Below are positions 21,954 through 32,767 of a stretch of DNA of 37,787 bases, piece after piece (position 1 is the stretch's first letter; every line of letters begins with the position of its first letter). Source of the stretch: Puniceicoccales bacterium (GTDB lineage: Bacteria > Verrucomicrobiota > Verrucomicrobiia > Opitutales > UBA953); contig JAITHA010000016.1 of the NCBI GenBank assembly GCA_031280235.1, forward strand, positions 1-37,787, given 5' to 3'. Below the pieces are notes generated by a model. The model was not told the DNA's origin. It did no database searches and saw only the letters and a program-made list of their open reading frames with translations. The position numbers and the translations under genes are program-made.

Positions 21954-22148
21954 TCAGACTGAGCCGGCAGACCGAATCACCTTGTTGGGGTCAATCCCTA
22001 CGACTTTGCCTTTGCGGACGACGTAGAGCAGCTGTCCAAACTCGATGGCTTTCTTTGCGGCGGCGATTTGAGCGCGGCGCATGGCGGCGCAGACTTGTCG
22101 CGCGCGCTTGCTCCGAGATTGGGATCGTTGAGTAGAAACTTCTTTCAT
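21954..22148 (-). CDS. Small basic protein paired with the zeta-like kinase (candidate antitoxin)
   Basis: The 64-residue protein has an Arg/Ser/Gln-rich, strongly basic N-terminal half (QRSQSRSKRARQ), a helix-forming AAMRRAQIAAAKKAIEFG, and a C-terminal strand pair around LLYVVRKGKVVGIDP. Its ATG overlaps the stop of the kinase gene by four bases (ATGA), so translation is coupled. Small partners with a V-x-R-x-G-K-V-V-x-I ending commonly accompany zeta-toxin-like P-loop kinases, which makes an antitoxin role plausible. It is not the classic epsilon antitoxin by sequence, and the order (kinase first) is the reverse of epsilon-zeta. Function is an inference from neighbourhood. Confidence 0.62.
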   Translation of the reverse strand: MKEVSTQRSQSRSKRARQVCAAMRRAQIAAAKKAIEFGQLLYVVRKGKVVGIDPNKVIRSAGSV

Positions 22149-22678
22149 AATTTCCAGCCGCGAAAGATGCGTCCTTTGCCTTTTGAGTCAAGCATTTCGC
22201 GCGTGCTCGCATCGAAGACCCACCAGTCATCGGCCAATTTCTTGTAGATCTTGTTGAAATTTTGCCAGCTGCGCTCGATTCGCCGTCGGATGGAGTCTTC
22301 TGGGACGGAGTGCCCGCCTTGCTTGACGCGCATGGCCACGCGTTGCACGGCCAGCTCAGGGACGTCCAGCTTCAGGTAGGCAATCTCGATGGAGTAACCC
22401 GCTTTTTTCCAGCTCTTGAGGAAAAGCGTGTGCGTCAGCCCGGAGAGTGTGCTCTCAATGGCGAAGTCTCTCCCCGAAGCCACCACGCGGTGCATTTCCT
22501 CAATGGCGATGCGGGCCGCCGAGCGAGTGGCCAGCTCAGGGGCAAAGGGAGAGAGGCCGCGGGCAATCTCATCCGTATTGATGAAGCGCAACACCCCGGC
22601 TTCGAGCGGCAGGTACTCGCGCGCAAAGGTTGTCTTCCCGGAGCCGTTGGGCCCGCCAATGACGATGCAAAGGGGCAT
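22145..22678 (-). CDS. Zeta-toxin-like P-loop kinase
   Basis: The 177-residue protein begins with Walker A GGPNGSGKTT (8-17), then INTDEIARGLSP, IESTLSG (the E/S/TTLSG motif typical of this family) and an Arg-containing lid helix SIRRRIERSWQNF. Zeta toxins phosphorylate UDP-N-acetylglucosamine and so block wall synthesis. This compact branch is shorter than classic zeta toxins (about 270-290 residues) and its substrate is not established; some members may be ordinary kinases or ATPases. The stop overlaps the start of a 64-residue partner, and tandem terminators follow. It is the first gene of this short transcript. Confidence 0.83.
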   Translation of the reverse strand: MPLCIVIGGPNGSGKTTFAREYLPLEAGVLRFINTDEIARGLSPFAPELATRSAARIAIEEMHRVVASGRDFAIESTLSGLTHTLFLKSWKKAGYSIEIAYLKLDVPELAVQRVAMRVKQGGHSVPEDSIRRRIERSWQNFNKIYKKLADDWWVFDASTREMLDSKGKGRIFRGWKL

Positions 22679-23803: not shown

Positions 23804-23941
23804 CTGCCACACGCTCGCGAAGTTTTTGGAAATCCGCTTGCCTTCGCCGAGCGCCCAGACATTAGTCTGCAGTTCGGGCTTGGGGACTGTCGTCCCGCCC
23901 CTTAGCAAACCGGTCCGCTGAATCTTACTGCCTTGTCTGCC

Positions 23942-26900
23942 ATGAATAATCTCTTGTCCTCATTCGCCTTGCACGGACGCCGAGTCGTCCTGCTCGGTGC
24001 CCTTTTCCTCGCCTTTCTCTCATCCGCCCCGGGTGTCGTAGCCGCCGCCATCGATGAGCGCACCGTGGACGTCCTCGTGGTCTACACCCCAGCTGTGAGC
24101 GCCTATCATGGTGGGCCCGATGGCGTGCGCGCGTTGATGATCGCCTACGAAGCCGAGACCAACAAGGCCTACGAGGATAGCTTGGTCGACGGGAGGATAA
24201 AGGTCGTTGGGGTCGAACGCGTGAACTACAGCGAATCGTCGAGCTACTCGACGGATCTCTACGCCGTTACGGGGGCAGGCTCATCGACAGTTTTCGATAC
24301 CTTGCCAGAGTTACGCGACCAGGCAGGCGCTGACCTCGTCTGCCTCTTGCGACGCGGGATGGACAGCAACGGCACGATGGGTATCGCATGGCTTAGCGTG
24401 AGCAGTGCTTCCCCCAACGGACAGTCGTCTTTTGGTTTTTCCGTCGTCGGTGCCGATTTCGGTGCAAACGTTTTCGCCCACGAGCTTGGGCACAATTTCG
24501 GCTGTGCGCATGACCGAGCTACAATCGCCGCCTCAGGGGGAGGAGGCGGGCGCTTCGAGTACTCAAACGGCCACACATTCACCGGGAATGATGGTGTGCT
24601 CTATGGGACAATCATGTCCTACGTCCACAACCAACCAGGCGGCAGAACGATCATGTATTTCTCCAACCCGGATGTGAGTTACCAAGGGAAGCCAACGGGC
24701 GTCCCGGCTGGCGATGCGCAATCTGCCGACAACGCAAGGACGCTCAACCAGACTTTCACCACTGTCGCTGAATACCGCGAGCGCACGACTCCCCCGATCA
24801 TCGAGCCCGAGGGCGGTGAATTCAGAGGCGCCGTCGAAGTACGCCTGAGTTGTGAGGCACCGGAGGCAACCATACGCTACACGACCGACGGCTCGGACGT
24901 CACATGGGGGAACTCCGTCATCTACTCCGCGCCATTTGTGCTGACATCCTCCACATGGCTGAAAGTGCGCGCCTTCAAGAACCCGCTACAAATGAGCTTG
25001 CAGGCCTCCGCACGTTTCAAGGTGACAAACCTGCCACCTGCCCCGGCCCCGGAAATCTCTCCCGATGGCGGGAGCAGCCTCGGGCCACAGCTCATCACCA
25101 TCACGAGCTCTGTCGCTGACGGGCAAATCTATTACACGCTCGACGATACGGATGTGGACCAGAAGTCGATACGTTACGAAGGCCCCTTTTACCTGACGAG
25201 GACTGCCACCATCCGGGCGCGCGTCATGGACAGCAATACTCACAACCCAAGCCCGGAGGCACAGGCCGCTTTCAGCATCTTCCCGGTGCTCATGCCTGCG
25301 CCGCAAATCCTGCCCGACGGGGGCAAGTTCCTTGAGATCGCTACGGTGTCCCTCTCGGTGCCCGCTCCCGCCGCCACCCTGCGCTACACGACGGATGGCA
25401 GCGCTGTAACCGAGCAATCCCCGATTTATACAGCCCCCTTCACCCTCGTGGAGACAAGCACGCTGAAAGTGCGTGGCTACGGGGAGGGCTATCACCCAAG
25501 CCCAGAGGTCACCCGCGTAATCGTCGTGAGACGTGTTGGGGATGTTCAAAACGACAATCTGCACAGCGTCGGTGCAGGCGGCGAACACAGCGCTTTCCTG
25601 ATGGCAGATGGCGAACTGCGCACAACGGGCCTGAATGTCCAAGGCCAGCTTGGCGACAATACTTTCGAAAACCACGTGGCTCCGGTCATTGTTGCCCAAA
25701 ACGTGAGAGACGTCGCGACTGGCGCAGCGCACACTTTGTTTGTGACGACGGATGGTGTGTTGCACGGTATGGGCCTGAACACCAGCGGCCAGCTCGGTGA
25801 CGGCACTTCCATAAACCGCAAAAGCCCCGTGGACATTTCTCGCAACGTCAGCCTCATCGCAGCTGGTGGCGCGCACAGCCTCTTTATCACCACCGAAGGG
25901 CAACTCTGGGCCGCAGGCCTGAACAATCATGGCCAACTTGGCGACGGCACCGCAGTGACACGCTTTGCTCCAGTGCGTGTAAGCGCGGGCGTAATACTCA
26001 TCGCCGCAGGAGCGCACCACTCCCTCTTTGTCGATAGCACCGGGCGCCTCTACACCATGGGTCTGAATGACCACGGACAACTTGGCGACGGGACGGACAT
26101 TAGCCGGAAAACCCCCGTGCTCGTGCTCATCCCTGAGCATGTCGCCGCCGTGGCCGCAGGGGACAACCACAGCCTTGTGCTCGGGATCAACGGTGTGCTC
26201 TATGCCATGGGCGGGAATGATTATGGCCAGCTCGGCAACGGCACATTTGTCGCCAGCCGCCAGCCGGTGATCGTCGCGGAACATGTCGCCGCCATCGCCG
26301 CCGGGGGTAACCATAGCGCGTTTATCACCGAGGACGGGCGTCTCTTCACCATGGGCCTCAACGATGCCGGTCAGCTCGGCGACGGGCACATAGCCAACAG
26401 CTCGCAGCCTGTGCAAATCGCGCAAGGCGTGAAAGCCGTCTCTGCCGGAGCTTCGCACACAATGTACGAGCTCAACGACGGGCGGCACTTTAGCGTAGGG
26501 CGCAACCAGAGCGGCCAGCTTGGCAGCGGCACCGACGAGAGCCTCGTCTTGCCCGGACAGATGCTCGTCCAACCTGCGACATCCACGCCGTACATCAGCC
26601 CGGATGGCGGGTTTTTCGAAGGTGCCGTCACGGTTTCCATCGTCAACGCCACTGGGGCCGACGGGGCCATCATCCGCTACACAACGGATGGCGGAAGCGT
26701 CACCGAACTTTCCCCGGTCTACACTCAGCCGTTTGCGTTGGTGCAAAACACTACGGTGCGTGCCCGTGCGTGGCTCGACGGTTGTGTCGCCAGCAATCAG
26801 GCGGAGGAGACTTTCTCAATACTCTTGCCCCCGGGCTACAGTGTTCCAGTGATCGTCACGCAGCCCGTCGCCCAGGTTGTCGGCATCGGCGGCTCGGCTT

Positions 26901-28981
26901 CATTTGAGGTCGTTGCCGAGAGCCTTCTGCCTCTCACCTACCAGTGGCGCTTCAACGGCGTGCCGTTACCAGGTGCCACCAGCTCTACTTTGCTCCTGCC
27001 ATGGGTCGGCAGCGTGAACTTGGGCGAGTATTCGGTGGAGGTGACCAATAGCCTTGGTGCCGTCGTCTCCGAGAGCGCAACACTTTCGCTTCGTTCCACG
27101 CCGCGTATCACCTCGCAACCGCAATCCCTGCGCGTCGCACGCGGGCAGCAGGCCATTTTCCGTGTCGTCGCCACGGGTAACCCGTCTCCGACCTACCAGT
27201 GGTATTTCAACGGACTCCCAATCCCCGGAGCTGTCGGAAACTCGCACACAGTCATCGGTGCCGTGGGCGAAAATGCGGGGAGCTATATCGTGGCCATCAC
27301 CAATGCCGCAGGCAGCGTCACCTCAGACGTGGCCGTGCTCACTGTGGACGCGCCGCCCGTCATCTATCGCCATTCTGCCGCCGACAGCTCCGGCTGGAAG
27401 GGCGGTACGGTTTCCTTCTTCACCGAAGCTTTTTCTCCGGATGGCAGCGACCTCTCCTACCAGTGGTATTTCAACGACTCGCTGATCCAAGGCGCCGTCG
27501 CGCCGATCTATACTGTCTTGAACCTCTCGGCAAAAAATGAAGGCGTTTATACCGTGAAAGTCTCCAATATCCGTGGCGATGTTTTCAGCGGGAAAATGCG
27601 CCTCGGCGTGCAGACCCCTGTCGCGCCCAAGATTCTTTATAACTTGCCCAAGACAGCCGAGGCAGGTTTGGGAGGGGCGCTCACACTCAAAATTTACGCC
27701 ACGGGCCAGCCAGAGCCGCAATATCAGTGGCTCTTCAACGGCGAGCCCATAGAAGGCGCCACGAGTGCAAGCTATACTATCCAGGACATTACTGCTGCAG
27801 ACGCAGGCAAATACTCTGTCGTCATCGTCAGCGGCCCCAAAAAAGTGACCAGCCGCGCGACGACGGTGAACATCATCATGCCGCCAGAAGTGACGCTCAC
27901 GCCAGCTGGCGAAGTCGTCGCCCTAGCCTCCAAGGGGGCAAAGCTCACTGTCAAAGCCGTCTCAAACGGCAAGACCAAGCCATCCTATCAGTGGGTGAAC
28001 GCTTCGGGTGATATCAAGGGAGCCAACAAAAACAGTTTTACAGCGAAGGCGGACGGCACTTACCGTGTGCGAGTCACCAACGGCGCAGGTTCTGTTCTCA
28101 GCGAAGAAGCCAGAGTCTTCCTCATCGCCCCACCCAAGATTGCCCGTTTCGACGCCAGTGCGACGACAGTCTCTCAGGGCGACGAGGTGAGCTTTACTGT
28201 CACGCTCAAGCCAGGCACAGGTACCCCCGTGAACTTGCGGTACATCTGGCTTTTCAACGGCAAGCCCATCGCGGATGCGCCCAACGCCCCCATCTTCACC
28301 ACAGCTCCCACGCAGTCCGGGAAATATTCTGTGCGCGTTGAAAACGGAGCAGGGAAAGCCATAGGTAAGGCGACGAGTAGAATAATTAAGATTAATGTCA
28401 GCCCGAGACAGTCGTATTCAGGAGGAGGCAGTTTGATTTTGACTTCAGTTGGAAGCGGTTCGATAGAAGCAGGAATCATGAAAGTAGTAGGCGACTTGGT
28501 GTCCAGCAAAGTAGTAGGCGACTTGGTGTTCAGCAACTCTTCCCTGACTACGCTGTGTTTGGATGTTCAGGACACGAATTCTTCCGATTCACCCAGACCC
28601 GATATCTTCGGGAAAAATTTGGCACTTACGTCTCTTGTTTCTTCCGTGAGATTCTTTGAAGATATTAGGCTTACGTTCTACCCCCTCGTTTGGACGGGCG
28701 AGAATACGGCAACTTTATCCTACCACATTCATGACGTGAGTGGCACGATAGATCTATTATTAGAAAGGGGCGAGGTGTATCTCACTTTCCCTGAGGGAGT
28801 GGATCGCCATTCTCTGGCTGGAAATGAAGGTGAGTGCACCATTGTCGGAGAGCGCTTTCTTATCGGAGAGTCAGAACTCTTCGATGAGCGAGGCACCTTC
28901 TCAGTGATGAAATCACAACTTGGTGCTCTTATCCTGAATGTTTTCGAGTTCAACCAAGGTGTGGTCGAGCTCGAAAACTAA
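23942..28981 (+). CDS. Giant secreted metalloprotease with chitobiase-like, RCC1 and Ig-like repeats
   Basis: The start is ATG 23942; three codons earlier only a TTG is available. The 1679-residue protein has a signal peptide (about 1-35). An M12-type zinc protease domain follows, with HELGHNFGCAHD (His180, Glu181, His184, His190) and the Met-turn TIMSYV (Met225). Two chitobiase C-terminal-like modules follow at 24795-25230, recognised by the DGS or DDT turn and ISPDGG. A third lies at 25303-25520. Seven RCC1-type repeats (25560-26570, each with a GQLG core) predict one complete seven-bladed propeller. A fourth chitobiase-like module is at 26590-26815, then six Ig-like modules with YQW-type cores (26845-28400). 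The unrecognised C-terminal part (28400-28981) is less GC-rich. The protein is probably exported and digests or binds polymers outside the cell. Confidence 0.88.
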   Translation: MNNLLSSFALHGRRVVLLGALFLAFLSSAPGVVAAAIDERTVDVLVVYTPAVSAYHGGPDGVRALMIAYEAETNKAYEDSLVDGRIKVVGVERVNYSESSSYSTDLYAVTGAGSSTVFDTLPELRDQAGADLVCLLRRGMDSNGTMGIAWLSVSSASPNGQSSFGFSVVGADFGANVFAHELGHNFGCAHDRATIAASGGGGGRFEYSNGHTFTGNDGVLYGTIMSYVHNQPGGRTIMYFSNPDVSYQGKPTGVPAGDAQSADNARTLNQTFTTVAEYRERTTPPIIEPEGGEFRGAVEVRLSCEAPEATIRYTTDGSDVTWGNSVIYSAPFVLTSSTWLKVRAFKNPLQMSLQASARFKVTNLPPAPAPEISPDGGSSLGPQLITITSSVADGQIYYTLDDTDVDQKSIRYEGPFYLTRTATIRARVMDSNTHNPSPEAQAAFSIFPVLMPAPQILPDGGKFLEIATVSLSVPAPAATLRYTTDGSAVTEQSPIYTAPFTLVETSTLKVRGYGEGYHPSPEVTRVIVVRRVGDVQNDNLHSVGAGGEHSAFLMADGELRTTGLNVQGQLGDNTFENHVAPVIVAQNVRDVATGAAHTLFVTTDGVLHGMGLNTSGQLGDGTSINRKSPVDISRNVSLIAAGGAHSLFITTEGQLWAAGLNNHGQLGDGTAVTRFAPVRVSAGVILIAAGAHHSLFVDSTGRLYTMGLNDHGQLGDGTDISRKTPVLVLIPEHVAAVAAGDNHSLVLGINGVLYAMGGNDYGQLGNGTFVASRQPVIVAEHVAAIAAGGNHSAFITEDGRLFTMGLNDAGQLGDGHIANSSQPVQIAQGVKAVSAGASHTMYELNDGRHFSVGRNQSGQLGSGTDESLVLPGQMLVQPATSTPYISPDGGFFEGAVTVSIVNATGADGAIIRYTTDGGSVTELSPVYTQPFALVQNTTVRARAWLDGCVASNQAEETFSILLPPGYSVPVIVTQPVAQVVGIGGSASFEVVAESLLPLTYQWRFNGVPLPGATSSTLLLPWVGSVNLGEYSVEVTNSLGAVVSESATLSLRSTPRITSQPQSLRVARGQQAIFRVVATGNPSPTYQWYFNGLPIPGAVGNSHTVIGAVGENAGSYIVAITNAAGSVTSDVAVLTVDAPPVIYRHSAADSSGWKGGTVSFFTEAFSPDGSDLSYQWYFNDSLIQGAVAPIYTVLNLSAKNEGVYTVKVSNIRGDVFSGKMRLGVQTPVAPKILYNLPKTAEAGLGGALTLKIYATGQPEPQYQWLFNGEPIEGATSASYTIQDITAADAGKYSVVIVSGPKKVTSRATTVNIIMPPEVTLTPAGEVVALASKGAKLTVKAVSNGKTKPSYQWVNASGDIKGANKNSFTAKADGTYRVRVTNGAGSVLSEEARVFLIAPPKIARFDASATTVSQGDEVSFTVTLKPGTGTPVNLRYIWLFNGKPIADAPNAPIFTTAPTQSGKYSVRVENGAGKAIGKATSRIIKINVSPRQSYSGGGSLILTSVGSGSIEAGIMKVVGDLVSSKVVGDLVFSNSSLTTLCLDVQDTNSSDSPRPDIFGKNLALTSLVSSVRFFEDIRLTFYPLVWTGENTATLSYHIHDVSGTIDLLLERGEVYLTFPEGVDRHSLAGNEGECTIVGERFLIGESELFDERGTFSVMKSQLGALILNVFEFNQGVVELEN
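28481..28534 (+). repeat. Tandem 27-base duplication inside the giant protease gene
   Basis: The 27-base unit at 28481-28507 is repeated at 28508-28534 with one change (C to T). It keeps the frame and encodes KVVGDLVSS followed by KVVGDLVFS. The near identity suggests a recent slippage duplication at the junction between the Ig repeats and the C-terminal part. Confidence 0.9.
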
Positions 28982-29066
28982 GCAGGGAACCGGACAGGAC
29001 TTTCCTTGTCGGAGAGAGATCTCGGGTTACGGGCGACGTAGCCTGAAAAGGTGCTGGCACTCATAC

Positions 29067-30512
29067 ATGTTCCCTCATCCAAGACGCATATTCCTGGCAT
29101 TTGTTTTTGCCAGCCTTGCTGGTTGCACAGTCGGCCCGGATTATCAGCACCCGGAACCTTTCTCGCCGCTCCCCGAAGCCTTTAAAGAAAAGGGGCCTTG
29201 GAAAAAACCTGTACCGCGGGACCACTTGCCAAAGGACGAATGGTGGAAAATCTACAACGACCCCGCCTTGAGTCGCCTCCTTTCTGCTGTCACGAAGGCC
29301 AGCCCTACCATTTACGCGGCCCTCGCCCGGCTTGACCAAGCGCGAGCTCTGGCAGGCATGGAGGCCTCAGCCTTTTCCCCAGGCATCTCAGGCAGCGCTT
29401 CCGCCGAGCGCGCCCGCCAATCTCCGGCAAAAAATCGTCCCGCCATTACGGTTAATTCGTTCTCCTTCGCTTTCGATTTGCGCTACGAGCTGGATCTTTG
29501 GGGGCGTGTTCGCAGGCTTGACGAGGCCGCTGTTGCCCGTGTCGCTGCCTCTGGAGCCGATTTTCACAACGTCCTTCTGTCCGTCCAAGCTGAGACGGCC
29601 CGCGCCTATTTCCAGTTGCGCACTCTTGATGCTGAGCGCGCTGTCGTGTTGCGCAACATAGACGGGCGCGCGAGATCCCTCGACTTTATCAAGCGCCGCC
29701 GAGAACTCGGGGCCAGCGATCGTCTCGACCTCTCGCTTGCCGAGACCGAGTTGGCCACTGCCGAGGGAGATCTGTTAGAGATCGACCGTCTCCGCGCCGC
29801 ACGCCGTCACGAGTTGGCCGTTCTCTGCGGCACAAATCCATCCACTTTTTCCATCGACGAAAACGCCATTGCCGCGCGCACCGCACCGCCTCCAATCCCG
29901 GTCGGAATCCCGTCGGAGCTCCTTGAGCGCCGCCCGGACGTTGCCTCTGCCGAGCGTGCCCTCGCCGCCACCTGCGCGGATATCGGTGTCGCCTCGGCAG
30001 CGTTTTACCCGTCCATCGTCATCTTTGGCGCGGCAGGCTATGGCTCTTTTGATGTGGAGAGGGTGCTTGATTGGAGCAGCCGCCAGTGGTCGCTTGGCCC
30101 GGCGCTCAACGTCCCCATTTTTGATGGCGGGCGCAATATTGCCAACTTGCGCCGCGCCGAGGCCCTCCACGCCGAGGCTCTCGCTCGCTATCGCCAACAG
30201 GTGCTTGTTGCTTTCCAAGAGGTGGAGACTTGCCTTAGCGATCTTCAGTTGTTGGCAGGGCGCAGTGTCAAGCTGGAGCAAGCCGTTGCCTCGGGAAACC
30301 GCGCCTCGCTTTTGATGAACGAGCGCTACAAGCACGGAGCTGTTGCCTACAAAGATGTGGCAGATACAGAGCGCCTCGCCATTGCCAACGAACGCCTCGC
30401 AGTGCAAGTTCTTGGCCAGCAACTCGTCACAAGCGTCCTCCTCGTGAAGGCCGTTGGCGGGGGCTGGGCATCTGAGGCCCCGTTTGACGGAACAGGGCAG
30501 GATGCGCCTTAG
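29067..30512 (+). CDS. NodT/OprM-family outer-membrane efflux lipoprotein
   Basis: The start at ATG 29067 gives a lipoprotein signal with lipobox LAGC (Cys20), followed by VGPDYQHPE, the classic opening of OprM/NodT channels. The 481-residue protein shows the duplicated helical hairpin plan: DEWWKIYNDPALSRLLSAV, LDLWGRVRRLDEAAVARVAA, later LLERRPDVASAERALAATCADIGVA and FPSIVIFGAAG-like SIVIFGAAGYG, ending in VAVQVLGQQLVTSVLLVKAVGGGW. Such trimers form the outer-membrane duct of tripartite efflux pumps. The gene precedes a membrane fusion protein gene with a 37-base gap, so both belong to one efflux unit, but no inner-membrane pump gene follows here. Confidence 0.93.
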   Translation: MFPHPRRIFLAFVFASLAGCTVGPDYQHPEPFSPLPEAFKEKGPWKKPVPRDHLPKDEWWKIYNDPALSRLLSAVTKASPTIYAALARLDQARALAGMEASAFSPGISGSASAERARQSPAKNRPAITVNSFSFAFDLRYELDLWGRVRRLDEAAVARVAASGADFHNVLLSVQAETARAYFQLRTLDAERAVVLRNIDGRARSLDFIKRRRELGASDRLDLSLAETELATAEGDLLEIDRLRAARRHELAVLCGTNPSTFSIDENAIAARTAPPPIPVGIPSELLERRPDVASAERALAATCADIGVASAAFYPSIVIFGAAGYGSFDVERVLDWSSRQWSLGPALNVPIFDGGRNIANLRRAEALHAEALARYRQQVLVAFQEVETCLSDLQLLAGRSVKLEQAVASGNRASLLMNERYKHGAVAYKDVADTERLAIANERLAVQVLGQQLVTSVLLVKAVGGGWASEAPFDGTGQDAP

Positions 30513-30549
30513 ATTAATCCGAGTAAAAAATCCTTTTTTCTCCTGCATC

Positions 30550-31737
30550 ATGATACAACGCATCATCTTCGCCACGATAGCTCTCACCATTCTCGGCTTG
30601 GGTGCGCTCGCTTGGTATATCCCCAAGCAGCGTAGCGCCGCGCAAGAAGCTGCTCGTCAGGAGGCCACCGAACGCAAGAAGCGACCTGTGCCAGTTGTGC
30701 TTGCCAGGGCCGTCAGGCAGGACGTACCCATTTGGCTCGAAAACACGGGAACCGTTCAGGCCTACAACTCCGTCACGGTGCGCCCACGTGTCAGCGGCAC
30801 GCTTGACTCGGTAAACTTCTCCGAGGGGCAACTCGTCGACAAAGACGATGTCCTCGCGCAAATCGATCCGCGTCCTTACCGTGCGGTTCTCGCTCAAGCC
30901 CAAGCCCGCAAGGTGCAAGACGAGGCTCAGCTTGCCCACGCACGTCGTGAGTTGGAGCGCATCAGCGCCCTTGTTAAACTCGACGCTGAGAGCCAGCGTC
31001 TCCTCGACCAGCAGCAGGCCAGCGTTACCCAGCTCTCCGCACTTGTTCAGGCAGATCAGGCCGCAATGGAGGCGGCTCAGCTTGACCTTGAGTTCACCAC
31101 ACTACGTGCGCCCATAGCGGGCCGCACTGGCTTTCGCCAGCTCGACGCGGGGAACACCGTCACCGCCAATCAAAGCACGGGTTTGGTCGTCATCACACAG
31201 TTGCAGCCCATCAACGTCGTCTTTTCCATGCCCCAGAAGCACCTTGCCGCTCTCCGCCCGATCATTAGCCCGGGCGGCAAGCCTTTGCCCGCGCAGGCTG
31301 TCATCGACGAGACGGGCGAGGTTGTCGGAGCGGGTGAGCTCAGTTTGCTCGATAACTCGGTGGATGTCTCCACAGACAATGTCCGCCTCAAAGCCACTTT
31401 TCCCAACGAGGATGCGGTTCTCTGGCCGGGACAGTACGTTTTGGCGCGCGTCTTGGTCAGCACTTTGAAAGGCGCCATCCTCGTTCCCGCCGAGGCGGTG
31501 AAGCCGGGTGTGGATGGCCCCATCGTTTATGTCGTTCGCCCGGGCAACACCGTGGAAATGCGCTCCGTCGTCCTTGGCCCGGAAGTGCGCCAGGGAAATC
31601 AAGTCGTCATTGAGACGGGAATTTCGGATGGCGAAGTCCTTGTTCGCGAAGGCCAAAATAAGTTGAAGACGGGCTCAAGCATTGAGGCGGCCAGGGATAT
31701 GTCGGGCACCGCCGTTCCTGCCGCTGAAAAGATCTAA
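30550..31737 (+). CDS. RND-type membrane fusion (periplasmic adaptor) protein
   Basis: The 395-residue protein starts at ATG 30550. It has an N-terminal anchor (about 3-24), then RPVPVVLARAVRQDVPIWL and the lipoyl half VTVRPRVSGTLDSVNFSEGQLVDKDDVLAQIDPRPY. A long helical hairpin follows (about 95-170), then the other lipoyl half LRAPIAGRTGFRQLDAGN, and a beta-barrel and membrane-proximal domain with LWPGQYVLARVLV and ILVPAEAVKPG. These match MdtA/AcrA-type adaptors that join an RND pump to an outer-membrane channel. The channel gene lies upstream, but an OppD/DppD-type ATPase follows 22 bases later instead of an RND pump. Confidence 0.93.
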   Translation: MIQRIIFATIALTILGLGALAWYIPKQRSAAQEAARQEATERKKRPVPVVLARAVRQDVPIWLENTGTVQAYNSVTVRPRVSGTLDSVNFSEGQLVDKDDVLAQIDPRPYRAVLAQAQARKVQDEAQLAHARRELERISALVKLDAESQRLLDQQQASVTQLSALVQADQAAMEAAQLDLEFTTLRAPIAGRTGFRQLDAGNTVTANQSTGLVVITQLQPINVVFSMPQKHLAALRPIISPGGKPLPAQAVIDETGEVVGAGELSLLDNSVDVSTDNVRLKATFPNEDAVLWPGQYVLARVLVSTLKGAILVPAEAVKPGVDGPIVYVVRPGNTVEMRSVVLGPEVRQGNQVVIETGISDGEVLVREGQNKLKTGSSIEAARDMSGTAVPAAEKI

Positions 31738-31759
31738 TCCCAGCCTGCGTTTTATCGCC

Positions 31760-32767
31760 ATGCCCCTCCTTCGTATTGAGAACCTGCGCGTTGGTTTTGA
31801 CACCGAGGCTGGCCACCTTACCGCCGTTGACGGCATCTCGCTCGATGTGCCGCGCGGCAAGACGCTCGGCATCGTGGGCGAATCCGGCAGCGGCAAGTCA
31901 GTCACCGCCCTCGCCATCATGCGCCTTCTCCCCCAGCCTTCTGGGAAAATCACAGGTGGGCGCATTCTCTTTGACGGGCAAAATGACCTCGCATCCATGC
32001 CCCTCGACCAACTCCGCCGAATTCGGGGAAACCGCATCGGCATGGTTTTCCAAGAGCCAATGACGGCTCTCAACCCAGCGCACCGCATTGAGCGCCAGCT
32101 CATGGAGCCGCTCTTGCTCCACCTAGTCATCTCACGGGCCGACGCTCGCGAGCGCGCACGAGAATTACTCGCCAAAGTGGGCATTCCAGCCCCAGACGAA
32201 CGCCTCCGCGCCTACCCGCACCAACTCAGCGGGGGAATGCGTCAGCGTGTCGTCATCGCTATCGCTCTCGCCTGCCAGCCCGATTTGCTCATCTGCGACG
32301 AGCCAACGACCGCACTCGATGTCACGATTCAGGCCCAGATTCTCGACCTCCTGAAATCACTCCAGCGGGAGGCGCGCATGACGGTTATCCTCATCACACA
32401 TGACCTTGGCGTTATCGCTGAAAACGCCGACGAGGTGGCCGTCATGTACGCAGGACGCATCGTGGAGTGCGCCTCTGTCCGCTCGCTTTTCCGGGCCCCG
32501 TTGCATGCCTACACGCAGGCTCTCCTGCGTGCGATTCCCGCCCTTGATAGTGTGCCTAAGACACCGCTTTTCTCCATCGAAGGCATGGTGCCCTCTTTGT
32601 CTGAGCTGAAGCCTGGGTGTCGTTTCGCGCCGCGTAGCGGGCGGCCTTACACTGAGCAAGATCTCATGCAGCGCCCTCCCTACCTTGAGATCCGCCCAGG
32701 CCACTGGGTGGAGGCTTCACGTGTTTGCGTGGCAAACCTCCCGCCCTCGCAGACGATTCTGGCCTGA
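31760..32767 (+). CDS. OppD/DppD-type oligopeptide ABC transporter ATPase
   Basis: The 335-residue ATPase has Walker A GESGSGKS, the peptide-type Q loop MVFQEPMTALNPAHRI, signature LSGGMRQRVVIAIALA, Walker B LLICDEPTTALDVTIQAQ and switch THDLGVIAE. The C-terminal extension with LHAYTQALLRAIP and PGCRFAPRSGR matches the oligopeptide/dipeptide family, whose C-terminal Cys residues bind an iron-sulphur cluster in several members. Such ATPases work with two permeases, a binding protein and usually a second ATPase (OppF/DppF), none of which is in the window. It follows the fusion protein gene by 22 bases and precedes a phosphatase-fold gene by 14, so it is probably co-transcribed with them, but a functional link is not shown. 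Confidence 0.92.
   Translation: MPLLRIENLRVGFDTEAGHLTAVDGISLDVPRGKTLGIVGESGSGKSVTALAIMRLLPQPSGKITGGRILFDGQNDLASMPLDQLRRIRGNRIGMVFQEPMTALNPAHRIERQLMEPLLLHLVISRADARERARELLAKVGIPAPDERLRAYPHQLSGGMRQRVVIAIALACQPDLLICDEPTTALDVTIQAQILDLLKSLQREARMTVILITHDLGVIAENADEVAVMYAGRIVECASVRSLFRAPLHAYTQALLRAIPALDSVPKTPLFSIEGMVPSLSELKPGCRFAPRSGRPYTEQDLMQRPPYLEIRPGHWVEASRVCVANLPPSQTILA

Follow-up and report, generated by a model that had tools for sequence, protein, structure and literature searches.

A Metzincin with a Predicted Seven-Bladed RCC1 Propeller Is a Shortened Paralog of Proteases Encoded beside a Prodomain Homolog

Introduction

How does a bacterial metalloprotease come to carry an RCC1-type propeller inside a run of chitobiase-like and immunoglobulin-like modules, and how might such an enzyme be guarded? 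The question is raised by one gene of the window, by which we mean the whole stretch of DNA analyzed here (37,787 nucleotides; contig JAITHA010000016.1 of assembly GCA_031280235.1). It comes from a 1.76-Mb, 83% complete genome (G000) of a Puniceicoccales bacterium, a group placed in Verrucomicrobiota by the NCBI taxonomy. Four further MAGs of the same genus, likewise deposited as 'Puniceicoccales bacterium' (G001, G002, G003 and G008; JAITXH, JAITIB, JAITPT and JAISZI), fall within the accession range JAIRJQ-JAITXW given for termite gut MAGs in PMC11257099 (this and the other articles are cited here and below from partial texts), and we infer a termite gut origin for the window bacterium, too.

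Results

Catalytic Domain and Module Layout

The gene is a single intact open reading frame of the plus strand, running from an ATG at 23942 to a stop at 28981 (1679 residues, 5040 stop-free bases, with an in-frame TTG at 23933). A predicted signal peptide (23942-24046, residues 1-35, ending ...SSAPGVVAA, read from the sequence by eye) precedes an M12/reprolysin-like metzincin catalytic domain (24059-24787; Pfam PF13583, Reprolysin_4, E 2.5e-28, 99.6 bits against a cut-off of 22), in which both the zinc site HELGHNFGCAH (24479-24511; its three histidines invariant in the nine rows of alignment A1) and the Met-turn GTIMSY are intact. The same region matches positions 1-236 of the NCBIfam Mep72 equivalog NF052434 (E 9.9e-37, 126.7 bits against a cut-off of 645) and positions 375-575 of the 575 of the CpaA model NF033511 (45.2 bits against a cut-off of 750). 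Since the catalytic match starts about five residues after the signal peptide, the protein has no room for a prodomain in cis.

Behind the catalytic domain, three CHB_HEX_C_1 (hereafter CHB) modules (24806-24997, 55.1 bits; 25061-25246, 50.4 bits; 25313-25504, 55.4 bits) lead into the predicted seven-bladed RCC1-type propeller (25568-26560), which is followed by a fourth CHB module (26600-26782, 51.2 bits), six Ig-like modules (26846-28399) and a C-terminal stretch (28400-28978), all on the plus strand. On the whole protein, Pfam assigns CHB_HEX_C_1 to four stretches (E 1.2e-54) and further matches Ig_3 (E 9.4e-41). A profile of the genus Ig modules, these six included, matches all six at 62-90 bits; scanned singly, three of the six exceed a Pfam cut-off (Ig2 and Ig4 for Ig, Ig6 for PKD), and Ig1 falls just short. 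The layout bears out a first-pass annotation of this DNA, which had described an intact M12-type zinc site, an RCC1 block between the third and fourth CHB modules and six Ig modules in a chain that may be secreted, a view with which the signal peptide is consistent. Its remark that the order was not that of a recognized family also stands: no single Pfam or NCBIfam model covers the whole order, and our literature searches returned no relevant match to it. As to the polymer-degrading or adhesive function it had considered, the module content is proof of neither, and the presence of CHB_HEX_C_1 does not in itself prove chitin binding.

Elsewhere in the window, a Zeta_toxin/AAA_33 kinase-type ORF of 177 residues lies on the minus strand (22145-22678), and positions 28938-32767 hold genes for a NodT-type outer-membrane factor and an RND adaptor. 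No RND pump gene adjoins these two, the next gene encoding an oligopeptide-type ABC ATPase; RND pump matches elsewhere in the genome are on contigs C5, C55 and C83, with a weak one on C25.

A Complete Predicted Propeller

Pfam matches the window protein with both RCC1 (E 1.3e-64) and WD40_RLD, the RCC1-like domain (E 8e-90). Seven RCC1 matches pass the Pfam cut-off within 25607-26563, the seventh spanning only profile positions 1-29 of 50, as it would in a propeller whose first blade is closed by the final strand. An AlphaFold2 model of residues 36-971, built with four relatives as input, has a mean pLDDT of 78 overall and is of low confidence in the protease part beyond the zinc helix; over the propeller (model residues 511-840) block means reach 85-96, with 78 in the preceding block. 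The strands of the modeled propeller add up as 3 + 6x4 + 1 = 28, consistent with seven closed four-stranded blades, and the top rows of a Foldseek search with the model are UVR8 chains (~1.6 A over ~357 columns), with RCC1 matched as well. Matches to the grappling-hook protein GhpA (two rows, TM 0.14-0.15) were set aside. The propeller is thus predicted to be complete, in agreement with the seven full repeats first read from the sequence, and the model gives no indication of a broken one.

In its seven blades and GQLG repeats the propeller resembles those of UVR8 (~30% identity), RPGR, HERC2 and RCC1, a propeller type most familiar from regulatory proteins of plants and animals, but differs from them in being predicted to be extracellular and in lying within a run of Ig-like modules. 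UVR8-type photoreceptors rely on a tryptophan cluster. Residues 543-880 of the window protein contain a single tryptophan, so the propeller is not a UVR8-type UV sensor. Predicted extracellular RCC1 proteins are also on record from an insect gut bacterium, Bifidobacterium asteroides of the honeybee, and the available text of PMC3447821 assigns them no function; these differ in belonging to a Gram-positive organism and in carrying a Listeria-Bacteroides domain and an LPXTG-type signal, and that text mentions no protease with them. Antisense to the RCC1 block runs a 586-codon open frame (24986-26746, minus strand), probably a shadow frame of the repeats.

Relatives within the Genus and Beyond

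A search of relatives, in which up to eight candidates per genome were scored, found matches in 16 of 57 genomes, including seven of the nine of the genus; among the 28 same-family genomes outside it, one (G018) matched, in Ig-type stretches only, and the full domain order was found in none. We analyzed 13 M12 proteins of the genus, a set that leaves out two further M12-type matches (on contig C188 of G001 and at L218 in G004). Nine of the 13 have the order M12-CHB-RCC1-CHB-Ig: the window protein, L046 and seven proteins that we call canonical (L040-L045 and L047), with an M12 domain, four CHB modules, about seven RCC1 repeats, one CHB module (weak in L044, at 11 bits), seven Ig modules and a C-terminal domain. 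Of the others, L048 lacks a CHB module after the RCC1 block, L051 has no Ig module that we could find, and L049 and L050 carry 7 and 12 CHB modules, respectively, and no RCC1, which leaves RCC1 in 11 of the 13. The window protein is therefore no one-off but belongs to a set of at least 13 M12 proteins of its genus, nine of them sharing the same order of module types.

A GTDB scan found the full order in four of the best 80 of at least 393 confirmed loci, all four from Puniceicoccales, and in the same 80 two others with M12 and RCC1 and, by the genus profiles, neither CHB nor Ig. A CHB-RCC1-CHB query had matches in 69 of 273 genomes of the order, with up to five candidates per genome considered (up to two in the corresponding phylum search), and among the matches listed for the order four cover nearly the whole query, in three genomes of this genus. 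Judging from match ranges in G090, G501 and G541, CHB probably lies next to RCC1 elsewhere as well. As far as searched, then, the full architecture is confined to one genus.

The trees suggest how it arose. In the RCC1 tree, the blocks of ten genus M12 proteins, L051 not among them, form one clade (96/97) that excludes the blocks of L052, a genus protein without M12, and of Pararhodobacter, Nitrosomonadales and other families; in the M12 tree, the RCC1-less L050 groups with L048 and L051 (97/91). Together, we read the two trees as a single gain of the cassette in the genus proteases, followed by loss or replacement, so that the early impression of an RCC1 block inserted among similar modules holds in the sense of a cassette gained once and missing from some paralogs. 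An M12 domain and an RCC1 block also share a chain in Pararhodobacter aggregans (L064) and in a MAG of Nitrosomonadales (L065), but there a cis prodomain is present (with only a weak match in L065, at E 6e-4), the genus profiles find neither CHB nor Ig, and, with RCC1 blocks outside the genus clade, these are probably independent fusions. In L052 itself (L052:1064-4189, minus strand) the RCC1 blades are on average 73% identical, as against 39-50% in the nine others compared, which looks like recent repeat amplification.

That the protein is mainly an adhesin or surface scaffold, whose propeller, CHB and Ig modules bind host, fiber or neighboring cells and whose protease is accessory or inactive, is a reading we regard as unlikely. 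Most of the chain does consist of binding-type modules, RCC1-Ig proteins without M12 occur in the genus (L052) and elsewhere in the order, and the canonical copy of G001 (L041/L060) reads HQIGHNLGCGH, with Gln in place of the catalytic Glu. Against it, 12 of the 13 genus M12 domains keep HExxHxxGxxH, and a prodomain-like partner, described below, is kept at all seven canonical copies, which would make little sense for a dead enzyme, although the Glu-less G001 copy keeps its partner too.

The Window Gene as a Shortened Paralog

The genome of the window holds a canonical copy on another contig (C52), of which the window gene is a shortened paralog. It lacks the partner gene, one CHB module and one Ig module, and little of the C-terminal domain is left. 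CHB cross-scores indicate which module went: the best cross-matches of window module 3 include module 4 of the G002 and G001 proteins, and module 4 of the C52 copy has window module 3 as its best match, so that the latter likely corresponds to canonical module 4 and one earlier CHB module seems to have been lost. In the M12 tree the window protein groups with that of G002 (86/95), apart from the C52 copy of its own genome.

The C-terminal stretch (28400-28978), on which the first-pass annotation is silent, contains a short internal duplication (VVGDLV) and has no Pfam match. It is an apparent remnant of the canonical seventh Ig module and C-terminal domain, with which it aligns with large gaps (alignment A5). 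A profile built from the C-terminal domain of the canonical proteins recovers the canonical copy in seven of the nine genus genomes but does not reach the window tail at E 0.01; the last 193 residues match only themselves in their own genome, and modeling of the last Ig module together with the C-terminal stretch gave a prediction too poor for use (mean pLDDT 50). The C-terminal sorting signal that the first-pass annotation suggested looking for did not emerge: no known one was recognized, and the canonical domain is eroded in this copy. The idea that the canonical domain is itself a general sorting domain was dropped, as seven of its 11 profile matches in the nine genus genomes are the canonical proteins.

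Such losses could mean that the window copy is a duplicate degenerating into a pseudogene, with only the C52 copy at work. We consider this quite improbable: the missing CHB and Ig modules, C-terminal domain and partner gene speak for it, but the 5040 bases run without a stop, the catalytic motif is intact, the propeller is regular, and the other partner-less paralogs of the genus are likewise open over their length.

A Partner Gene Upstream of Canonical Copies

Comparison of 415 neighboring ORFs from the 13 genus loci singled out one partner gene, found directly upstream and on the same strand at all seven canonical copies; beyond it, the comparison yielded just a frame antisense to the partner and two single pairs. 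It is absent from beside the window copy and L046, L048, L049 and L051 (none of the five other loci with upstream sequence), L050 beginning at a contig end with its upstream side outside the contig. The window copy is thus an orphan, and the spot where canonical copies have the partner is taken by a 3-keto-disaccharide hydrolase-domain gene (PF06439; 22829-23734, plus strand), about 200 bases upstream. In six of the seven canonical loci, partner and protease are 48-115 bases apart by the start codons that we chose. Searched for in whole genomes, the partner turned up in seven of the nine genus genomes, exactly those with a canonical protease gene; G000 has a single partner gene, on C52. G004 gave one weak match, to the partner's anchor and linker part, and G003 has a second partner-like gene (L217:4464-5435), with no M12 gene on the fetched 7.7-kb stretch.

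All seven partners have, near the N-terminus, a hydrophobic stretch of 19 residues (mean hydropathy 2.2-2.8), a predicted membrane anchor, followed by a linker in which Pro, Ala, Ser or Thr is often abundant and by a domain of ~120 residues ending in LDPxKMPxCGTC or similar. This fits the layout of CpaB, BamI and Lif, with a predicted N-terminal transmembrane segment, an extracytoplasmic domain and a gene adjoining that of the enzyme. Pfam offers nothing convincing for the partner and no model for five cis prodomain regions scanned, and neither the partner profile nor the mixed prodomain alignment A7 has a convincing match among solved structures.

Homology to Cis Prodomains

An un-iterated profile of the partner's C-terminal domain, run against the 2335 ORFs of the fetched loci (87 of them M12 ORFs), returned three family members and 12 other hits at domain E up to 1. 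Ten of these 12 lie in M12 ORFs, and in all ten the match sits immediately N-terminal to the catalytic domain; the best E values in M12 ORFs are 1.7e-5, 1.6e-4 and 7.5e-3, against 3.0 for the best reversed-sequence match, and one of the remaining two (L123:5682-6239) directly precedes an M12 ORF. Iterated over four rounds and 7045 ORFs, the profile reached 74 matches at E 1e-3. Of these, 55 precede an M12 domain encoded by the same ORF, and 19 (16 distinct) are stand-alone proteins, which adjoin an M12 gene in 15 of the 16 cases. Outside the genus, those at L056, L057, L069, L205 and L207 are partners of M12 genes with no recognized cis prodomain. Seen from the protease side, 55 of 103 M12 ORFs have a cis prodomain by this profile, 15 (12 distinct) have only an upstream stand-alone one, and 33, the window protein included, have neither, although many of these 33, from other phyla, may have prodomains missed by the profile.

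A profile-profile comparison of cis prodomains with the partner set gave 99.4%, a figure that is partly circular because the cis prodomains were gathered by a partner-seeded profile; the independent tests of homology are the un-iterated search and the BamI sets described below. On this evidence, the C-terminal domain of the partner and the prodomains that other M12 metzincins carry in cis are homologs. A CxxC tail closes all 13 Verrucomicrobiota stand-alone domains, and at the same place an acidic residue followed by Cys occurs in 27 of the 55 cis prodomains, by a loose pattern. The CxxC tail may resemble the cysteine switch of animal M12B proteases. It is not found in the other three of the 16 stand-alone proteins, L106:5865-6410 and L123:5682-6239 from Desulfobacteraceae MAGs and L079:7876-8403 from a Nitrospira MAG, which have no tail cysteines and whose neighboring M12 genes also encode a cis prodomain.

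The Link to BamI and CpaB

A stand-alone ORF of a Pseudomonadales MAG (L121) tied the partner to proteins of known systems. It matches NCBIfam BamI (3.6e-10) and CpaB (4e-4), both under cut-off, and is found by the iterated prodomain profile at E 7.4e-3, outside the inclusion limit. At this locus (L121:6170-15689), two large M12 genes flank the one BamI/CpaB-like gene, the downstream of them with internalin-like leucine-rich repeats by NCBIfam, under cut-offs. In the 390 genomes of the same order, the BamI model matched 29 at E 1e-3, nine over cut-off. The iterated prodomain profile in turn reaches 27 of 30 BamI-type ORFs at E <=0.1 (15 at 1e-3), as against a single one (and none at 1e-3) of the 306 ORFs of those loci outside the BamI-type and M12 sets; the un-iterated partner-domain profile does not reach BamI.

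In profile-profile comparisons, BamI was matched by the cis prodomains at 97.5% (E 6.8e-12) and by the Verrucomicrobiota stand-alone domains at 71% (E 3.7e-5), but by the genus partners alone at only 7.3%; controls stayed at or below 0.6%, except BamI against Ig at 10.5%. The BamI set used here comprised 25 of the 30 ORFs, a choice that favors a match, with L232, L244 and L245 (unreached by the profile), L238 (a fragment) and L219 (the same ORF as in L121) left out. With other alignments, partner against BamI gave 58% and a mixed set of cis and stand-alone domains against BamI 94.6%, and the CpaB chain 6o38_G is matched (E 7.5e-6) when 11 of the 30 BamI-type proteins are aligned and used as the query.

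Unlike the Verrucomicrobiota stand-alone domains, BamI-type tails have no CxxC, and indeed, among the BamI-type proteins that the profile reaches, 0 of 27 has a tail cysteine. With three of the 16 stand-alone proteins lacking one as well, a cysteine switch cannot serve all of these proteins. The same result raises the odds that the upstream partner is a folding or export chaperone only, not a prodomain-like inhibitor, a possible if doubtful reading that draws on the lipase foldases, whose membrane anchor and folding domain have the same layout, and on the description of CpaB as a chaperone (PMC4713064). It has to contend, in turn, with the partner's homology to cis prodomains, with the CxxC and acidic-Cys ends noted above, with the CpaB tail lying in the catalytic site of CpaA (PMC4713064, PMC7542363), and with BamI, which binds Mep72 and relieves its toxicity in Escherichia coli (PMC4334185). 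In the available texts of PMC4713064, PMC7542363 and PMC6299215 neither 'prodomain' nor 'propeptide' occurs, the latter appearing in that of PMC4334185 only in the reference list, and 'cysteine switch' is absent from those of PMC4334185 and PMC6299215.

Discussion

With a partner homologous to prodomains and linked to BamI and CpaB, the window protease most likely goes back to a system in which the prodomain is detached and tethered. We propose, with a probability of roughly 60% for the explanation as a whole, that it is a large signal-peptide metzincin whose propeller serves as a binding platform, and a paralog of a partner-guarded canonical form. Under this model the canonical partner would be anchored in the inner membrane while the protease is exported by Sec; by analogy with CpaB and CpaA, the partner domain would both fold the protease and block its active site until export, and such detached prodomains would inhibit by occupying the active site, with or without involvement of a cysteine. 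The protease would then be released and moved across the outer membrane. The genome encodes one secretin, near PilM with two unnamed genes between, which could belong to pilus or type II machinery. Outside the cell, the CHB and Ig modules may form a rod that carries the catalytic domain, with the propeller as its binding face, most likely a platform that would keep the enzyme at the cell surface or on its substrate. The Gln that stands for the catalytic Glu in the canonical copy of G001 suggests that binding can persist without catalysis. The window copy, for its part, would either borrow the single C52 partner of its genome or work unguarded. Counted against this explanation are the partner-less, C-terminally eroded state of the window copy, the Glu-to-Gln exchange in G001, the failure of the un-iterated profile to match BamI, the 7.3% of the genus partners alone, and the tails without cysteine. 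A broader proposal, that in many bacterial metzincins the prodomain is a protein of its own tethered to the inner membrane, that BamI, CpaB and the Verrucomicrobiota partner are one detached-prodomain family related to the M12 cis prodomains, and that the duplicated RCC1 giants have lost their own member and share one in trans, we would put at even odds, lowered by the cysteine-free BamI-type tails.

A close known parallel is Mep72-BamI of Pseudomonas aeruginosa, a co-transcribed, adjacent pair in which a metzincin secreted by the type II system has accessory modules behind its catalytic domain (PMC4334185), as the window protein does, and in which the partner is known as an adjacent gene, as at the canonical copies. 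Mep72 differs in size and equipment, with 599 residues, two carbohydrate-binding modules and no RCC1, CHB or Ig (PMC4334185), and no BamI-like gene stands beside the window gene, whereas the seven canonical copies have a distant relative of it. CpaA-CpaB of Acinetobacter likewise pairs a metzincin with a partner that is encoded next to it, is anchored in the membrane and blocks the catalytic site with its tail (PMC4713064, PMC7542363), but cpaB lies downstream of cpaA and the canonical partner upstream of its protease.

The architecture is a variant of the secreted metzincins of the Mep72 and CpaA kind, and its most interesting part, the proposed detached prodomain, lies outside the window gene. 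The findings place a predicted secreted bacterial RCC1 propeller, a type of protein for which we found no assigned function (none in the available text of PMC3447821), in a defined genomic setting. They further suggest that partners described case by case, BamI as an inhibitor and CpaB as a chaperone, correspond to the prodomain that related proteases carry in cis. A switch between cis and trans prodomains thereby becomes testable, and may offer a route to finding the partners of metzincins from uncultured bacteria and so to making these enzymes in the laboratory.
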